Shown here in pieces: positions 17,364 through 23,158 of a DNA stretch of 34,768 bases. The notes under the pieces were generated by a model. The model had not been told where the DNA came from. It did no database searches and worked only from the letters and a program-made list of their open reading frames with translations. Position numbers and translations under genes: made by a program. The stretch covers positions 1-34,768 of the forward strand of contig DVHC01000013.1 of assembly GCA_018712385.1 (NCBI GenBank), written 5' to 3'. The DNA is from Candidatus Onthousia excrementipullorum (GTDB lineage: Bacteria; Bacillota_I; Bacilli_A; RF39; UBA660). The first letter of the stretch is position 1, and the number at the start of each line of letters is the position of its first letter.

Positions 17364-17382
17364 GGGGCTGTCGAGAAATTAA
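17364..17382 (+). repeat. Left terminal inverted repeat of the IS1182 element
   Basis: GGGGCTGTCGAGAAATTAA matches the complement of 19116-19134 at all 19 positions. A fifth G lies just outside (17363). Confidence 0.85.
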
Positions 17383-19007
17383 TTAATTGATTTCTTGACA
17401 GTTTCTTTTTTTTGCTTTACATATGGAAAGGTCTCTTTGTGTAAATTATTTGGTGTATCCCAACAGTTGTCTTTAAATTTGCAATCATCAAAAGAATCAA
17501 GTAATCTTCTTATATTAACGCCTAAACACTCAAGCATCACTTCACAAGAAACATTTTTTAACCCACGTCTTCTTATTCTTTCATAATTCATATTGTTCTT
17601 AATTTGGCCAAATGTTCCTTCAACTTGAATACTTCTATTTATTCTTATCTCAATTCCTTTTGGACTCAATAGGTTATTTCTTGCCTGTTCTTTCAATAAC
17701 TCATAGTCAGGGTTTAATTCGACTTTTCTAAAGTTTTCATCTTTATTTTTTAAGTTTTTCTTACAAATATATGAATAGTTGCAGTTATTGCAACCTTCAA
17801 ATATATAGAGTTTTGTGTCTTTATTTCTTTGATGAGCAGAATTGGTTTTAAATGATATTTCTTTTCCAATATTAGTATTTAAACACATTATACCATCACC
17901 AAATGTATAAAAAAGTTGAGGCCTTTTACCACTAGATTCACCATTCCATTGTTGAAATTTCAAATAATTACCTATATTATGTTCCCTAAGATATTTATAA
18001 TTGGTATAAATACCATAACCAGAATCTCCAACTGCATTTTTTGGATAACTTCCATAATATTTATAATAATTATTGTATAAAGGTATAAGTGTATAATAAT
18101 CTGTTCTATCTTGATATACTCCGTACATTACAATTAATAGGTTAGACACTAATACCTGAACATTATATGCTGCATGGAAATCATGACTAAGTTTAGAATA
18201 ATAATCTTCTTTTAACATCATTGCAGTAGCATCTTTATCTGTTTTAAAATAAGAATTTCTATTATCTCCACAAATTTTTTCTTTTTCTTCATATTCAAGA
18301 AGCTTTATTAAATACTTATATGCTTGTTTATAATTTTTTATTTCTTTAGTAGTTCTAACTCCTTTACCACCTGGTAAATTATTAATATCTATATTATTTT
18401 TATATATATAATCTTTTAATATCAAATTAAATTTATCAGTCTTAATTAAATCTTTATTATTTGCTTCTTCAACATATCCCATTTCTCCCAATAAGCTTTT
18501 TATTTTTATATCTAGTTTTTGGTGGAATTTAGTAGGTTTCCAAACAAATTTATATTTATTTGCGTTGGCTTCAAATTTACTTCCATCAATATAAGCATCT
18601 TCTATAATTAAATTTAATTTTTTAATTATATGTTTAACAATAGTAGTAAATATTTCGTATTGATATGGAACTATATAATCATTAATAAAATTACCAAAAG
18701 TTGAATGGTCTGGTATATTACCATCCATAATATATAATACCCTAATATCAAAAAGGCATTTATCTTCTATATCTCTTAAAGATGCCTTAAACTTTGCAAA
18801 ACAATATACAATTGCAGCGAGTAGTTTATAAGGATCATAACCTTTTCGTCCTTTACACATACTTCTTTTTAACTTTACACTTTTTATTATTTTCCAAACA
18901 CCAGATTCTTCTAAAAAAATCAAAAATTTATCAATTTTCTCAAATTCCTCATTACATTTATCTGAGGGCACTAGAAAAATAGGCCTTTTTGTAGTAAAAT
19001 ACTCCAT
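17379..19007 (-). CDS. IS1182-family transposase
   Basis: A 542-residue DDE transposase. Near the start is the DUF772 domain (GRKGYDPYKLLAAIVYCFAK, SLRDIEDKC, PDHSTFGNF). The catalytic region shows EDAYIDGSKFEANANKYKFVW (first Asp), VGDSGYGIYTNYKYL (second), and IEIRINRSIQVEGTFGQIKNNM with the Glu. A Cys cluster (EGCNNCNYSYICKK) precedes the third motif, as in many IS1182 members. The ATG at 19007 has AAGGAG 9 nt upstream; an ATG at 19028 overlaps that SD and is rejected. Apparently intact, so the element may be active. Confidence 0.92.
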   Translation of the reverse strand: MEYFTTKRPIFLVPSDKCNEEFEKIDKFLIFLEESGVWKIIKSVKLKRSMCKGRKGYDPYKLLAAIVYCFAKFKASLRDIEDKCLFDIRVLYIMDGNIPDHSTFGNFINDYIVPYQYEIFTTIVKHIIKKLNLIIEDAYIDGSKFEANANKYKFVWKPTKFHQKLDIKIKSLLGEMGYVEEANNKDLIKTDKFNLILKDYIYKNNIDINNLPGGKGVRTTKEIKNYKQAYKYLIKLLEYEEKEKICGDNRNSYFKTDKDATAMMLKEDYYSKLSHDFHAAYNVQVLVSNLLIVMYGVYQDRTDYYTLIPLYNNYYKYYGSYPKNAVGDSGYGIYTNYKYLREHNIGNYLKFQQWNGESSGKRPQLFYTFGDGIMCLNTNIGKEISFKTNSAHQRNKDTKLYIFEGCNNCNYSYICKKNLKNKDENFRKVELNPDYELLKEQARNNLLSPKGIEIRINRSIQVEGTFGQIKNNMNYERIRRRGLKNVSCEVMLECLGVNIRRLLDSFDDCKFKDNCWDTPNNLHKETFPYVKQKKETVKKSIN

Positions 19008-19048
19008 GTGATACAACTCCTTAAGCAAGATTATTGTATCACAAAATG

Positions 19049-19115: not shown

Positions 19116-19134
19116 TTAATTTCTCGACAGCCCC
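19116..19134 (-). repeat. Right terminal inverted repeat of the IS1182 element, doubling as the end of truB
   Basis: Complement of 17364-17382. Read on the minus strand in the truB frame it gives G-L-S-R-N-stop. Confidence 0.85.
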
Positions 19135-20531
19135 TTTAACATTTTAAAGCATTTTAATTTATTATTAACATTCTGATAAATAGCCACTACTCTATTATTT
19201 CTCATAAATAGAACTTTATCTTTAATATTATAACTATTATCAATAACTGCCCCATTAACTATCCTTTTATAGTCCACACCATCTATTTCTTTTATTTCTA
19301 TATCTAGGGCATCACTAATAGTAATTAACTTACTATTTATAGTTACATCTTCTAAATCAACAGCATTATCTAATCTAAACTTACCTTGTCTCGTTCTTAT
19401 TAAACTACTCATAGTACATGGTATATCTAAAAACTCTCCCATATCTTTAATTAAACTTCTAATATAAGTTCCTTTAGATACAACACATCTAAACTTAAAA
19501 GAGTCTTCTTTATAATCTAAAAGTTCCAACTCTTTAATTATAACTTTTCTTTTAGGTAGTTCTACATCTTTATTACTTCTAGCATATTCATATAACTTCT
19601 TACCATTAACTTTAATAGCAGAGTACTTTGGTACTTCTTGAAGATATTCTTTAACAAACTCTTTAAATAAATTATCTAACATATCTTTAGATACTTTTTT
19701 ATCACTTGTCTTTACAATATTACCTTCTAAATCTAAAGTATCTGTTTCTACTCCTACTTTAACACTAGCGATATACTCTTTATCAGTACAGGTTAATAAT
19801 TCATTTATCTTTGTCGCCCTATTAATAGTAATTACAAGAAGCCCCTCAGCCATAGGATCAAGTGTCCCATTATGACCTATTTTCTTTGTATCAAAGACTT
19901 TCTCTAATTTATTAACAACATCTCTTGAAGTTATTCCCTTAGGTTTATTTACTAATAAAACGCCACTTTTATTATATAACTCATCATACTCTTCTAAAGT
20001 TAAATTATTATCTGTTATGATATTAGCAGTATTCTTCCCTACATATCTATAATGCCATGGCTCATAACTATAACCTGTTATATCATCTTTACCTTTAGGA
20101 TATCTAAGTATTAAACCATAATTAGGTAACAGTTCTATTATTTTCTCATATATTCTCTCTTCTTTAAATAACAAATCATTATCATAAATTAATTTATTAT
20201 TAATAACTAACCCTACATCTAAACAAAGCCCTGTATGATGTTCACTACTACCTAAAGGTGCAACATAACGTTCTACATAATCTTTACCATATTTATTAGT
20301 ATAATCATCTATTATCTTTTTTTGTTCTTCTAAAGTCCTTAATCCCCCTATTATATCTACAAAAATATTCTCTTTTTCTAAATCTTTCTTTAAATCAAAA
20401 TAAGCTTTTAAAGTCCTCTTTTCAAGTAAATATTCTTCATTTAAAGAATTAGTAATACTTTTATACTCTATATTAGAAAAATCTTCTTTATTATATGGCT
20501 TTTTCTTATTAACAACAATTTTATAATTCAT
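19116..20531 (-). CDS. truB: VanY-type D,D-carboxypeptidase fused to tRNA pseudouridine-55 synthase TruB
   Basis: One uninterrupted 471-residue frame carries two enzymes. Residues 1-180 are a peptidase M15B/VanY domain: SEHHTGLCLD (Zn ligands His98 and Asp105) and EPWHYRYVG (Glu157, His160), expected to remove the terminal D-Ala from peptidoglycan stem peptides. Residues about 187-471 are TruB: VNKPKGITSRDVV, catalytic GHNGTLDPMAEGLL (Asp225), KEYIASVKVGVETDT, and a PUA-like end. No signal peptide is visible, which is odd for a cell-wall enzyme. No ATG lies between the domains. The start at 20531 follows the rbfA stop by one base, with GAGGAA upstream. The last five residues and stop come from an IS1182 end. 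Confidence 0.9.
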   Translation of the reverse strand: MNYKIVVNKKKPYNKEDFSNIEYKSITNSLNEEYLLEKRTLKAYFDLKKDLEKENIFVDIIGGLRTLEEQKKIIDDYTNKYGKDYVERYVAPLGSSEHHTGLCLDVGLVINNKLIYDNDLLFKEERIYEKIIELLPNYGLILRYPKGKDDITGYSYEPWHYRYVGKNTANIITDNNLTLEEYDELYNKSGVLLVNKPKGITSRDVVNKLEKVFDTKKIGHNGTLDPMAEGLLVITINRATKINELLTCTDKEYIASVKVGVETDTLDLEGNIVKTSDKKVSKDMLDNLFKEFVKEYLQEVPKYSAIKVNGKKLYEYARSNKDVELPKRKVIIKELELLDYKEDSFKFRCVVSKGTYIRSLIKDMGEFLDIPCTMSSLIRTRQGKFRLDNAVDLEDVTINSKLITISDALDIEIKEIDGVDYKRIVNGAVIDNSYNIKDKVLFMRNNRVVAIYQNVNNKLKCFKMLKGLSRN

Positions 20532-20532
20532 C

Positions 20533-20871
20533 TTATTCCTCATTAATCTTATCTATAATCTTATCAATATGTTCTCCATAAGAAATAGACTCATCATATA
20601 AAAACTTTAAAAGAGGAATATGTCTTATCTCTATTCTTTTAGCAAGTTCTCCTCTTATAAAACTACTAGCATTATTTAAAGCTTTTAAAGTCTCCTCTTT
20701 TTTTTCTTGCTCTAAAACAGTAACATATATCTTACAATAACTTAAGTCATTAGAAGTATCACAATCAGTAACAGTTACAAATTTTATATTCTCATCCTTC
20801 ACTTCTAACATTAATATTTTACTAACTTCTTCCATAATCATATGATTAATTCTTTCTATTTTAATATTCAT
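20533..20871 (-). CDS. rbfA: Ribosome-binding factor A
   Basis: A 112-residue 30S-maturation factor of the KH-like fold that helps process 16S rRNA 5' ends. Family pattern: N-terminal RINHMIMEEVSKIL, FVTVTDCDTSNDLSYCKIYVTVL, and C-terminal RIEIRHIPLLKFLYDESISYGEHIDKII. The ATG at 20871 has AAAGGAC 8 nt upstream; a TTG at 20889 would overlap the SD and is rejected. It is one base from the vanY-truB start, so they are coupled. In most Firmicutes rbfA follows infB; here a plus-strand gene separates them. Confidence 0.93.
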   Translation of the reverse strand: MNIKIERINHMIMEEVSKILMLEVKDENIKFVTVTDCDTSNDLSYCKIYVTVLEQEKKEETLKALNNASSFIRGELAKRIEIRHIPLLKFLYDESISYGEHIDKIIDKINEE

Positions 20872-20950: not shown

Positions 20951-23158
20951 ATGTCAAAGAATTCTGAATTAGTAAAAGAGTTAAGAAATGGAAATAATAA
21001 TAGAGATGCTTTTTTTAAGGAAAAAATTAAAGAAGAATTAGAAAAATCAGGTATTAAAGGTGATGAAGTTACTATTAATGATATTTTTAATAAAGCTTTA
21101 GATACATACACAGATGATATTAAAATACCATTTTTATTTCATATTAAAGCCATTATAAAAAATAAAGATAAAAATACTGAAACAGGAGATTTAAATAATC
21201 TTCAATACAAAGTTATTAAATTATACTTAACTAAAGAAAATGACAAATATCTATCTAAAATAGAAATTGCTACTAATCTCTCTATAAAAATTGATGAAGT
21301 TATAAATATTATAAAATCTCTTAATAATAACAATAATTTAGATAAAGTATTTCCTAATTATAAAGAAATGCTTAAAGATAGAAATGACTACTTTAAGAAA
21401 AAAGCAATTGTTATATCTGAAAAGCAAATAATTTTATTAGTAGAATACTGTGGTGGTCTAAGGAAAGAGATGGATTTTAAAGCCCTTGCAAAGAAGTATG
21501 ATAAAACTACATTTGAGATTAAAAATGAATTAAATAATATCTTTAAACTATTAAAGACAGGAAATAATTTAACTATTTTATTAGATAGATATCCTAATAT
21601 TAAGAATGCTCTTATAAGAAAAAGTAAAGTATTTAATATTTCCTTAGATATTAAAGAAGATATAGCAGTTAAACATATTGTAACAAGTGATTTTAAAAGG
21701 AAAGCACATCTTAATAAGGATGATATTACAATGCTAAAATTATTAAGTAGTTATATTAAAAATGAACTTACCACAGAAAAAATAAAAGAAGCTGGTTTTG
21801 ATAGTGTAGCAAGTTTTGTTGATAAGAGAAATAGATTTTTTAGTAAACTTAGAACTAATGAAAGATTCTTTGATACTGTTAATGAATTATATCCTGATTT
21901 GGATATTGAAGCTTTAATAGATATGCCTAGACTAACCTATTATGAATTTAAAACTTTAGCACTTATAGATGAATACTCTTATAAAAAGGTAAGTGAAAAT
22001 GAGAAATTAATTGAACAAGAGAAATTTAAAAATACTAAGTCTTTTAAAAAAATATTAAATACTGCTGTTGATAAGTTAAATGAAAGTAAATATCTATTAG
22101 ATAAAGTATCTTTAATTCTTACTAATTTAAATGATTTAGAGTTAGTTGATAATAAAAAGAAAAAAGATGATTTAAGTCTTTCTTTAGTAGAAATAAAAAT
22201 ATTAGAAGCTTTAAATGACAATCCAGAATTAACTAATCGAGAGCTTGGTACTATAGCAGGATTTAAAAGTGAAGCTGGTTTTGTTAATAAAAAATATGAA
22301 TTATTAACTAGAATTAGCAATAATAAAATATTGGAATTAAAAGTTAAGAGGAAATATCCTAATATTGTATTAAAAAAGGAAAAGAGAAAAACTAAACTGA
22401 GTGATAAAAATATAGAATTACTTACTCTATTAGAAAAAAAGCTTTCTGATAAGGAAATGGCAGATACTTTAGAATTAGCGAATGAAAAGAGTTATTATAC
22501 TGTTAAGAGAATATTATTTAAACAATTAGAAGAAAATGAATCTCTTAAAAGAGATGCTTTAAGAAAGTTCCCTGACCTAATCTTAGATGATTATATTAAG
22601 AATCTTGCTATTAGATTTACAGAAAATGAAATAGTCTTTTTACAAGAGTTTTGTTTAATAGAAGATAATAATCTTATTTATCAAAGTGAAGAAGAAATCC
22701 TAAAGAAGCTTAACTTACAACCTAAGATGATAGAATTTGTTAAAACTACTTCTACTATTAAAGTTGTTAAAAATATGATTGTAGGTACTAATTTAGATGA
22801 ATTATTATGGTCTAATTTTACTGATGAGTTTATTACTAGGGATAGTTTTAATAGTGATAATAGTATTTCTGTTAATAATTTAGAGTTTAAAGAACAAATG
22901 AGTGATGATATATTAGAAGGTATCAAAAGACTTGAAGAGTCTATCTTTGGAGACTTTGTAGAGCAATGTACTTTAAAAGAAAAATTAGTTCTTGCTCTTA
23001 GATTAGGTTATTTTGATAAAAGATTTTTTACTAGTAGTGAAGTTGCTATGATTACAAAAATGGAAGAGATTAAAGTTATATCTCTAACTAAAAAGTGTTT
23101 AAAGATGTCTAGAAATAATTATATAGATGAAAAACAGAAGCAGAAGATTTTAATTTAG
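20951..23158 (+). CDS. Unrecognised 735-residue protein of tandem HTH-like repeats with sigma-factor-like ends
   Basis: No family recognised. The N-terminus (1-75) resembles the start of sigma-70-type proteins (ELVKELRNGNNNRDAFF, then ALDTYTDDIKIPFLFHIKAIIKN). Six or seven units of about 60-80 residues follow (near 84-135, 154-216, 253-317, 328-396, 407-472, 483-543, 555-615). Most have a helix-turn-helix-like centre (LTNRELGTIAGFKSEAGFV; LSDKEMADTLELANEKSYY) and close with Y/F-P-N/D-hydrophobic (YPNI, YPDL, FPDL). The C-terminus (664-724) resembles sigma region 4 (LKEKLVLALRLGYF...TSSEVAMITKMEEIKVI). Lys-rich, cytoplasmic, no membrane segment. A DNA-binding regulator is inferred. It lies antisense within the infB-rbfA block, convergent with infB. 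Confidence 0.8.
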   Translation: MSKNSELVKELRNGNNNRDAFFKEKIKEELEKSGIKGDEVTINDIFNKALDTYTDDIKIPFLFHIKAIIKNKDKNTETGDLNNLQYKVIKLYLTKENDKYLSKIEIATNLSIKIDEVINIIKSLNNNNNLDKVFPNYKEMLKDRNDYFKKKAIVISEKQIILLVEYCGGLRKEMDFKALAKKYDKTTFEIKNELNNIFKLLKTGNNLTILLDRYPNIKNALIRKSKVFNISLDIKEDIAVKHIVTSDFKRKAHLNKDDITMLKLLSSYIKNELTTEKIKEAGFDSVASFVDKRNRFFSKLRTNERFFDTVNELYPDLDIEALIDMPRLTYYEFKTLALIDEYSYKKVSENEKLIEQEKFKNTKSFKKILNTAVDKLNESKYLLDKVSLILTNLNDLELVDNKKKKDDLSLSLVEIKILEALNDNPELTNRELGTIAGFKSEAGFVNKKYELLTRISNNKILELKVKRKYPNIVLKKEKRKTKLSDKNIELLTLLEKKLSDKEMADTLELANEKSYYTVKRILFKQLEENESLKRDALRKFPDLILDDYIKNLAIRFTENEIVFLQEFCLIEDNNLIYQSEEEILKKLNLQPKMIEFVKTTSTIKVVKNMIVGTNLDELLWSNFTDEFITRDSFNSDNSISVNNLEFKEQMSDDILEGIKRLEESIFGDFVEQCTLKEKLVLALRLGYFDKRFFTSSEVAMITKMEEIKVISLTKKCLKMSRNNYIDEKQKQKILI

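Follow-up and report, generated by a model that had tools for sequence, protein, structure and literature searches.

We asked why, in Candidatus Onthousia excrementipullorum, a TruB-type tRNA pseudouridine synthase shares one open reading frame with a VanY-type peptidase, and where and on what such a peptidase might act. The window analyzed here is a 34,768-nucleotide stretch of DNA (assembly GCA_018712385.1, contig DVHC01000013.1), and the fusion gene lies on its minus strand at 19116..20531, starting with the ATG at 20531 and encoding 471 amino acids. An alternative in-frame ATG upstream, at 20543, is possible (475 residues from MRNK, 471 from MNYK); residues of the fusion protein are numbered from MNYK throughout. 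The fusion links two housekeeping processes, tRNA Psi55 modification and peptidoglycan precursor metabolism, in uncultured gut bacteria, and we know of no coupling between the two. Literature searches pairing TruB with VanY, and pseudouridine synthase with peptidoglycan in fusions, turned up nothing relevant (subscription papers were outside its scope), and the VanY-TruB fusion is unreported as far as the literature could be searched. The parts are of known kinds; what is surprising is that TruB is the partner, and that one half has decayed repeatedly while remaining attached.

The peptidase half comprises residues 1-187 (19971..20531; this and the following parts are all on the minus strand), with a Pfam VanY match at residues 35-166 (E 4.5e-29, 101.3 bits against a gathering score of 25) and the residues R65, H98, D105, E157, and H160. 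It consists of an N-terminal part and peptidase core, residues 1-140 (20112..20531), with an identity pattern that differs from its flanks, and a tail, residues 141-187 (19971..20111), containing ExxH, RYVG, and LTLEEY, whose last ~28 residues persist where the catalytic core has been lost. The TruB half, residues 188-471 (19116..19970), matches Pfam TruB_N at 211-357 (E 2.5e-50) and passes the NCBIfam equivalog TIGR00431 (222.7 bits against 151.45), with TruB_C_2 at 358-397 scoring slightly under the Pfam cut-off. An earlier note on this sequence had described a single frame with no internal start and two intact active sites, and both statements held: the coordinates are correct, codons 172-201 contain no in-frame ATG, GTG, or TTG, and His98, Asp105, Glu157, His160, and Asp225 had been named correctly, with R65 completing the M15 site. 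A separate TruB start near the joint is therefore ruled out for the window gene; among 68 fused relatives, a candidate internal TruB start with a Shine-Dalgarno-like site was present in only seven. The fusion is the sole TruB of the window genome. AlphaFold2, run on the window protein with ten relatives, gave one confident two-domain model (pLDDT 92, pTM 0.83).

To examine the prevalence of the fusion, we searched related genomes, as the earlier note had proposed. The same fused frame was present in nearly all members of the window's genus (32 of 34 genomes). No TruB was found in one of the two exceptions (G012), and in the other (G022) the fused ORF is cut at a contig end; both were treated as assembly gaps. 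A search of 386 family genomes added 33 from other genera in which the match to the fused model spans most or all of the model, plus six with a shorter or diverged version, which brings the fusion to 15 genera of the family in total. In other members of the family, truB is a separate gene of about 280 aa. No fusion was found in about 190 genomes from 21 other Bacilli families; a scan across all bacteria used narrow patterns and covers the matches listed, and cannot prove absence. On the TruB tree, a clade uniting all fused sequences with the losses nested among them was not rejected (AU p 0.79), which is compatible with, and does not prove, a single origin of the fusion. Two independent fusion events were considered and set aside on the same test.

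Directly upstream of the fusion lies rbfA (20533..20871, minus strand; Pfam RBFA), whose stop codon abuts the Shine-Dalgarno site and start of the fusion: a Shine-Dalgarno-like GAGGAA precedes the MNYK start and overlaps the rbfA stop codon. Further upstream are infB, nusA, and rimP (named by eye), giving the usual nusA-infB-rbfA-truB order. Directly downstream is a DDE transposase gene (17379-19028, minus strand), at the place occupied by rpsO in most congeners. In the window's genus, the fusion runs in the same direction as translation genes; outside genus g1, its neighborhoods vary. An ORF of 735 aa lies on the opposite strand between infB and rbfA (20951-23158, plus strand), with only a weak winged-helix match in Pfam, and ORFs of 730-1177 aa occur at the infB/rbfA interval in several congeners. 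One contig of a related assembly (G027 C16, locus L039) carries a second rbfA and a separate truB in addition to the fused copy, and the duplication of rbfA points to a contaminated assembly.

The C-terminal half has the features of an ordinary TruB. H220, T223, D225, Y253, and R358 are invariant in the 68 fused proteins, save for a gap at R358 in one interrupted member, and the catalytic D225 sits in GHxGTLDP. Foldseek matched this half to TruB structures, and it shares the fold, catalytic Asp, and flanking motif with bacterial TruB from E. coli (1k8w), Thermotoga (2ab4/1r3e), and Mycobacterium (1sgv), from which the fusion differs by about 187 extra N-terminal residues constituting a second catalytic domain. 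On these sequence criteria, the half is expected to perform the predicted Psi55 chemistry as in other bacteria, and would form pseudouridine 55 in tRNA. A different enzyme on the TruB N-terminus, a HAD-type phosphatase, was seen in one genome only, from another Bacilli family (L246; G441 C7 44000-47500, minus strand), as an open frame of 519 aa; its partner domain is unrelated to VanY.

In the peptidase half, R65, H98, D105, E157, and H160 are all kept in 58 of the 68 fused proteins, including that of the window. By their roles in the M15 site, H98, D105, and H160 are zinc ligands, E157 is the base, and R65 is substrate-binding. The closest solved structures found by Foldseek were those of VanXY-C (4oak, 4mur, 4mus, and 4mut), followed by VanY of the VanB cassette. 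Like VanXY-C, a D,D-dipeptidase/D,D-carboxypeptidase of Enterococcus gallinarum, the domain has an M15B fold, the motifs SxHxxGxxxD and ExxH, a length of about 190 aa, and no signal peptide. It differs in being fused to TruB, in the lack of a second ligase in our search, and in its best NCBIfam match, vanXY (NF000380), remaining under the cut-off (129.7 bits against 250); we therefore refer to it as VanXY-like, not VanXY.

The earlier note had also stated that the protein lacks a signal peptide, and this was confirmed by the absence of any hydrophobic segment in the first 80 residues (maximum KD19 0.49). By contrast, three further VanY proteins in the window genome (L211, L212, and L213) are membrane-anchored, with maximum KD19 of 3.3-3.5; these paralogues, like the anchored D-Ala-D-Ala carboxypeptidases of many gut Clostridia, share PF02557 and the catalytic motif with the fused domain, whereas anchored and lipoprotein VanY carry signal or membrane segments and act outside. 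No fused protein has a membrane segment, and with neither signal nor membrane segment an exported enzyme was ruled out; the fusion product would remain cytoplasmic. This location had seemed paradoxical for a VanY enzyme with external substrates. The paradox is less acute given that the non-fusion genera of the family commonly encode signal-less M15 peptidases of 180-200 aa as stand-alone genes; no separate signal-less M15 ORF was found in the fusion genomes searched. In the VanY tree, the fused domains group with a few separate signal-less relatives, apart from the lipoproteins and apart from a second signal-less group often found beside pcrA/uvrD. L062, one of the separate relatives, overlaps a Peptidase_C26 gene, an arrangement that would fit peptide salvage. 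In other genera, a signal-less M15 gene of ~185 aa tends to adjoin pcrA/uvrD (L221, L223, L226, L228, L229, L232, L236, and L237), and by eye such loci often continue with galU-like and ligA-like genes.

The window genome encodes a Mur ligase and one Ddl-family ligase, the only one found, and D-Ala-D-Ala compounds should therefore be present in the cytoplasm. Members of the order RF39, to which this lineage probably belongs, are predicted to have peptidoglycan with gaps in the precursor steps and to rely on scavenged muropeptides (PMC10868615). Taken with VanXY-C as the closest structures, the encoded Ddl and Mur ligase support the suggestion of the earlier note that the peptidase acts on cytoplasmic precursors. 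With moderate confidence, we favor the reading that the fusion combines an ordinary Psi55 synthase with a cytoplasmic VanXY-like D,D-peptidase whose substrates are peptidoglycan precursors or salvaged muropeptides. Its origin would be a lineage-specific event that placed a signal-less zinc D,D-peptidase (M15B/VanY) in frame at the start of truB. The N-terminal half would trim terminal D-Ala from, or split, D-Ala-D-Ala-bearing peptidoglycan molecules in the cytoplasm, with new precursors, free D-Ala-D-Ala, and imported muropeptides as candidate substrates. The two activities are probably independent, their fusion serving co-expression or stability, with the peptidase being conditionally dispensable. 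Two observations count against this reading: the missed vanXY cut-off, and the ten proteins without a full catalytic set. As regards the ligases, the Ddl-family ligase in fusion genomes is about 406 aa long with an insertion (e.g., L208 4920-6140), and a canonical Ddl of about 330-350 aa occurs additionally in some non-fusion genera.

Those ten fused proteins have damaged peptidase sites: H98Y and R65K in G005, E157S in G151, E157Q and R65L in G189, E157C in G147, loss of R65 with the zinc site kept in G270 and G369, which may still be active, a damaged site in G429, and a strongly shortened peptidase in G293, G384, and G413. Mapped by parsimony onto the TruB tree, the intact and broken states require eight changes, suggesting about eight independent losses of the active site. 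In the broken proteins, residues ~1-60 and ~160-187 survive, and the shortened ones have a deleted or scrambled catalytic middle; the N-terminus and the RYVG..LTLEEY tail are retained even in shrunken, still-fused domains. An HMM of intact members recovered the remnants at E 1e-69 to 6e-10, compared with 0.06 for the best of 1000 shuffles. Four genomes (G385, G125, G409, and G213) keep TruB with the domain absent. The separate truB genes of G385 (g38) and of G125 and G409 (g89) fall, with good support, within fused genera, which points to a probable loss of the domain in these genomes; a linker-like NYSG is retained at the TruB N-terminus of G385. TruB catalytic residues are unchanged where the peptidase is broken or gone. 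Ddl was found in most of the searched genomes with a broken peptidase, and because ten fused proteins are broken while Ddl is mostly present, cytoplasmic D,D-peptidase activity is not essential. A link of peptidase loss to cell-wall loss was not supported, as Ddl was found in both broken and lost lineages. Repeated loss of the active site with a remnant still attached is a new observation of this analysis, and a dispensable peptidase with a persisting remnant in several lineages goes beyond what the earlier note could see. The family thus offers a natural experiment, with proteins having two active sites, a broken but attached peptidase, a shrunken remnant, or TruB alone, in which one can ask whether chemistry or shape keeps a fused enzyme domain in place, and how pseudoenzyme domains arise.

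The same pattern raises the possibility that the peptidase domain is now a structural part of TruB, serving as a cap at the N-terminus, an aid to folding, or an additional contact with tRNA, with catalysis optional or vanishing. The repeated intact/broken changes, the persistence of both domain ends, detectable by HMM, a tail identity of 46-83% compared with 23-57% for the middle, and the single confident two-domain model all favor this alternative; we nevertheless regard it as unlikely, since a scaffold has no need of the five catalytic residues kept in 58 of 68 proteins, the four genomes lacking the domain retain TruB without it, and the ends may persist merely for carrying the start signal and the TruB joint. 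It is likewise a rather doubtful proposition that TruB absorbed the peptidase for good, turning it in several lineages into a non-catalytic domain for tRNA binding or for a link from wall metabolites to tRNA folding.

A sensing role, in which the domain would detect D-Ala-D-Ala or muropeptides and tune the tRNA-modification or chaperone function of TruB, coupling translation to cell-wall supply, appears improbable. TruB is known as a tRNA chaperone beyond its catalysis (PMC11301382), and the two-domain model and the co-directional translation genes in the window's genus would suit such a role; however, the domain is lost without change in the TruB catalytic residues, and the neighborhoods outside genus g1 are varied. 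Still less probable is glycopeptide resistance, in which the peptidase would remove D-Ala-D-Ala so that another precursor prevails, as with VanXY-C in enterococci: fold and catalytic residues match, but the window genome has a single detected Ddl-family ligase and the neighbors of the fusion are translation genes. Sister genera do have separate genes, as the earlier note had anticipated for a spurious fusion, but we regard an assembly artefact or frame-shift illusion as virtually eliminated, even though the named relatives, among the matches listed, are nearly all metagenome-assembled genomes, because recurrence in nearly all congeners and 15 genera excludes chance or misassembly, the identical joint appears in about 70 species, each assembled separately, and the flanks on both sides of the window fusion belong to one species group.

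Returning to the favored cytoplasmic peptidase, its core appears to have a history distinct from the rest of the gene. The window's infB is 98-99% identical, and its tail and TruB 93-96% identical, to those of G015 and G030; residues 1-140 show about 88% DNA identity to G018 and about 71% to G015/G030. Of the core and TruB trees, each rejects the grouping seen in the other, in this case (AU p 7e-48 and 2.6e-5) and in a second case behaving in the same way, G014/G004/G006 (AU p 6e-7 and 0.008), p-values that are optimistic, as the groupings were noticed before testing. From these comparisons, recombination in the window's genus is seen to swap the peptidase core between species, with rbfA, the domain tail, and TruB staying with the species. 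Several close pairs have a VanY dN/dS of about 0.17-0.37, and pairs with exchanged cores one of 0.63-0.68; for the core, dN/dS between types is high (0.59/0.71); the core exchange may reflect diversifying selection on the peptidase.
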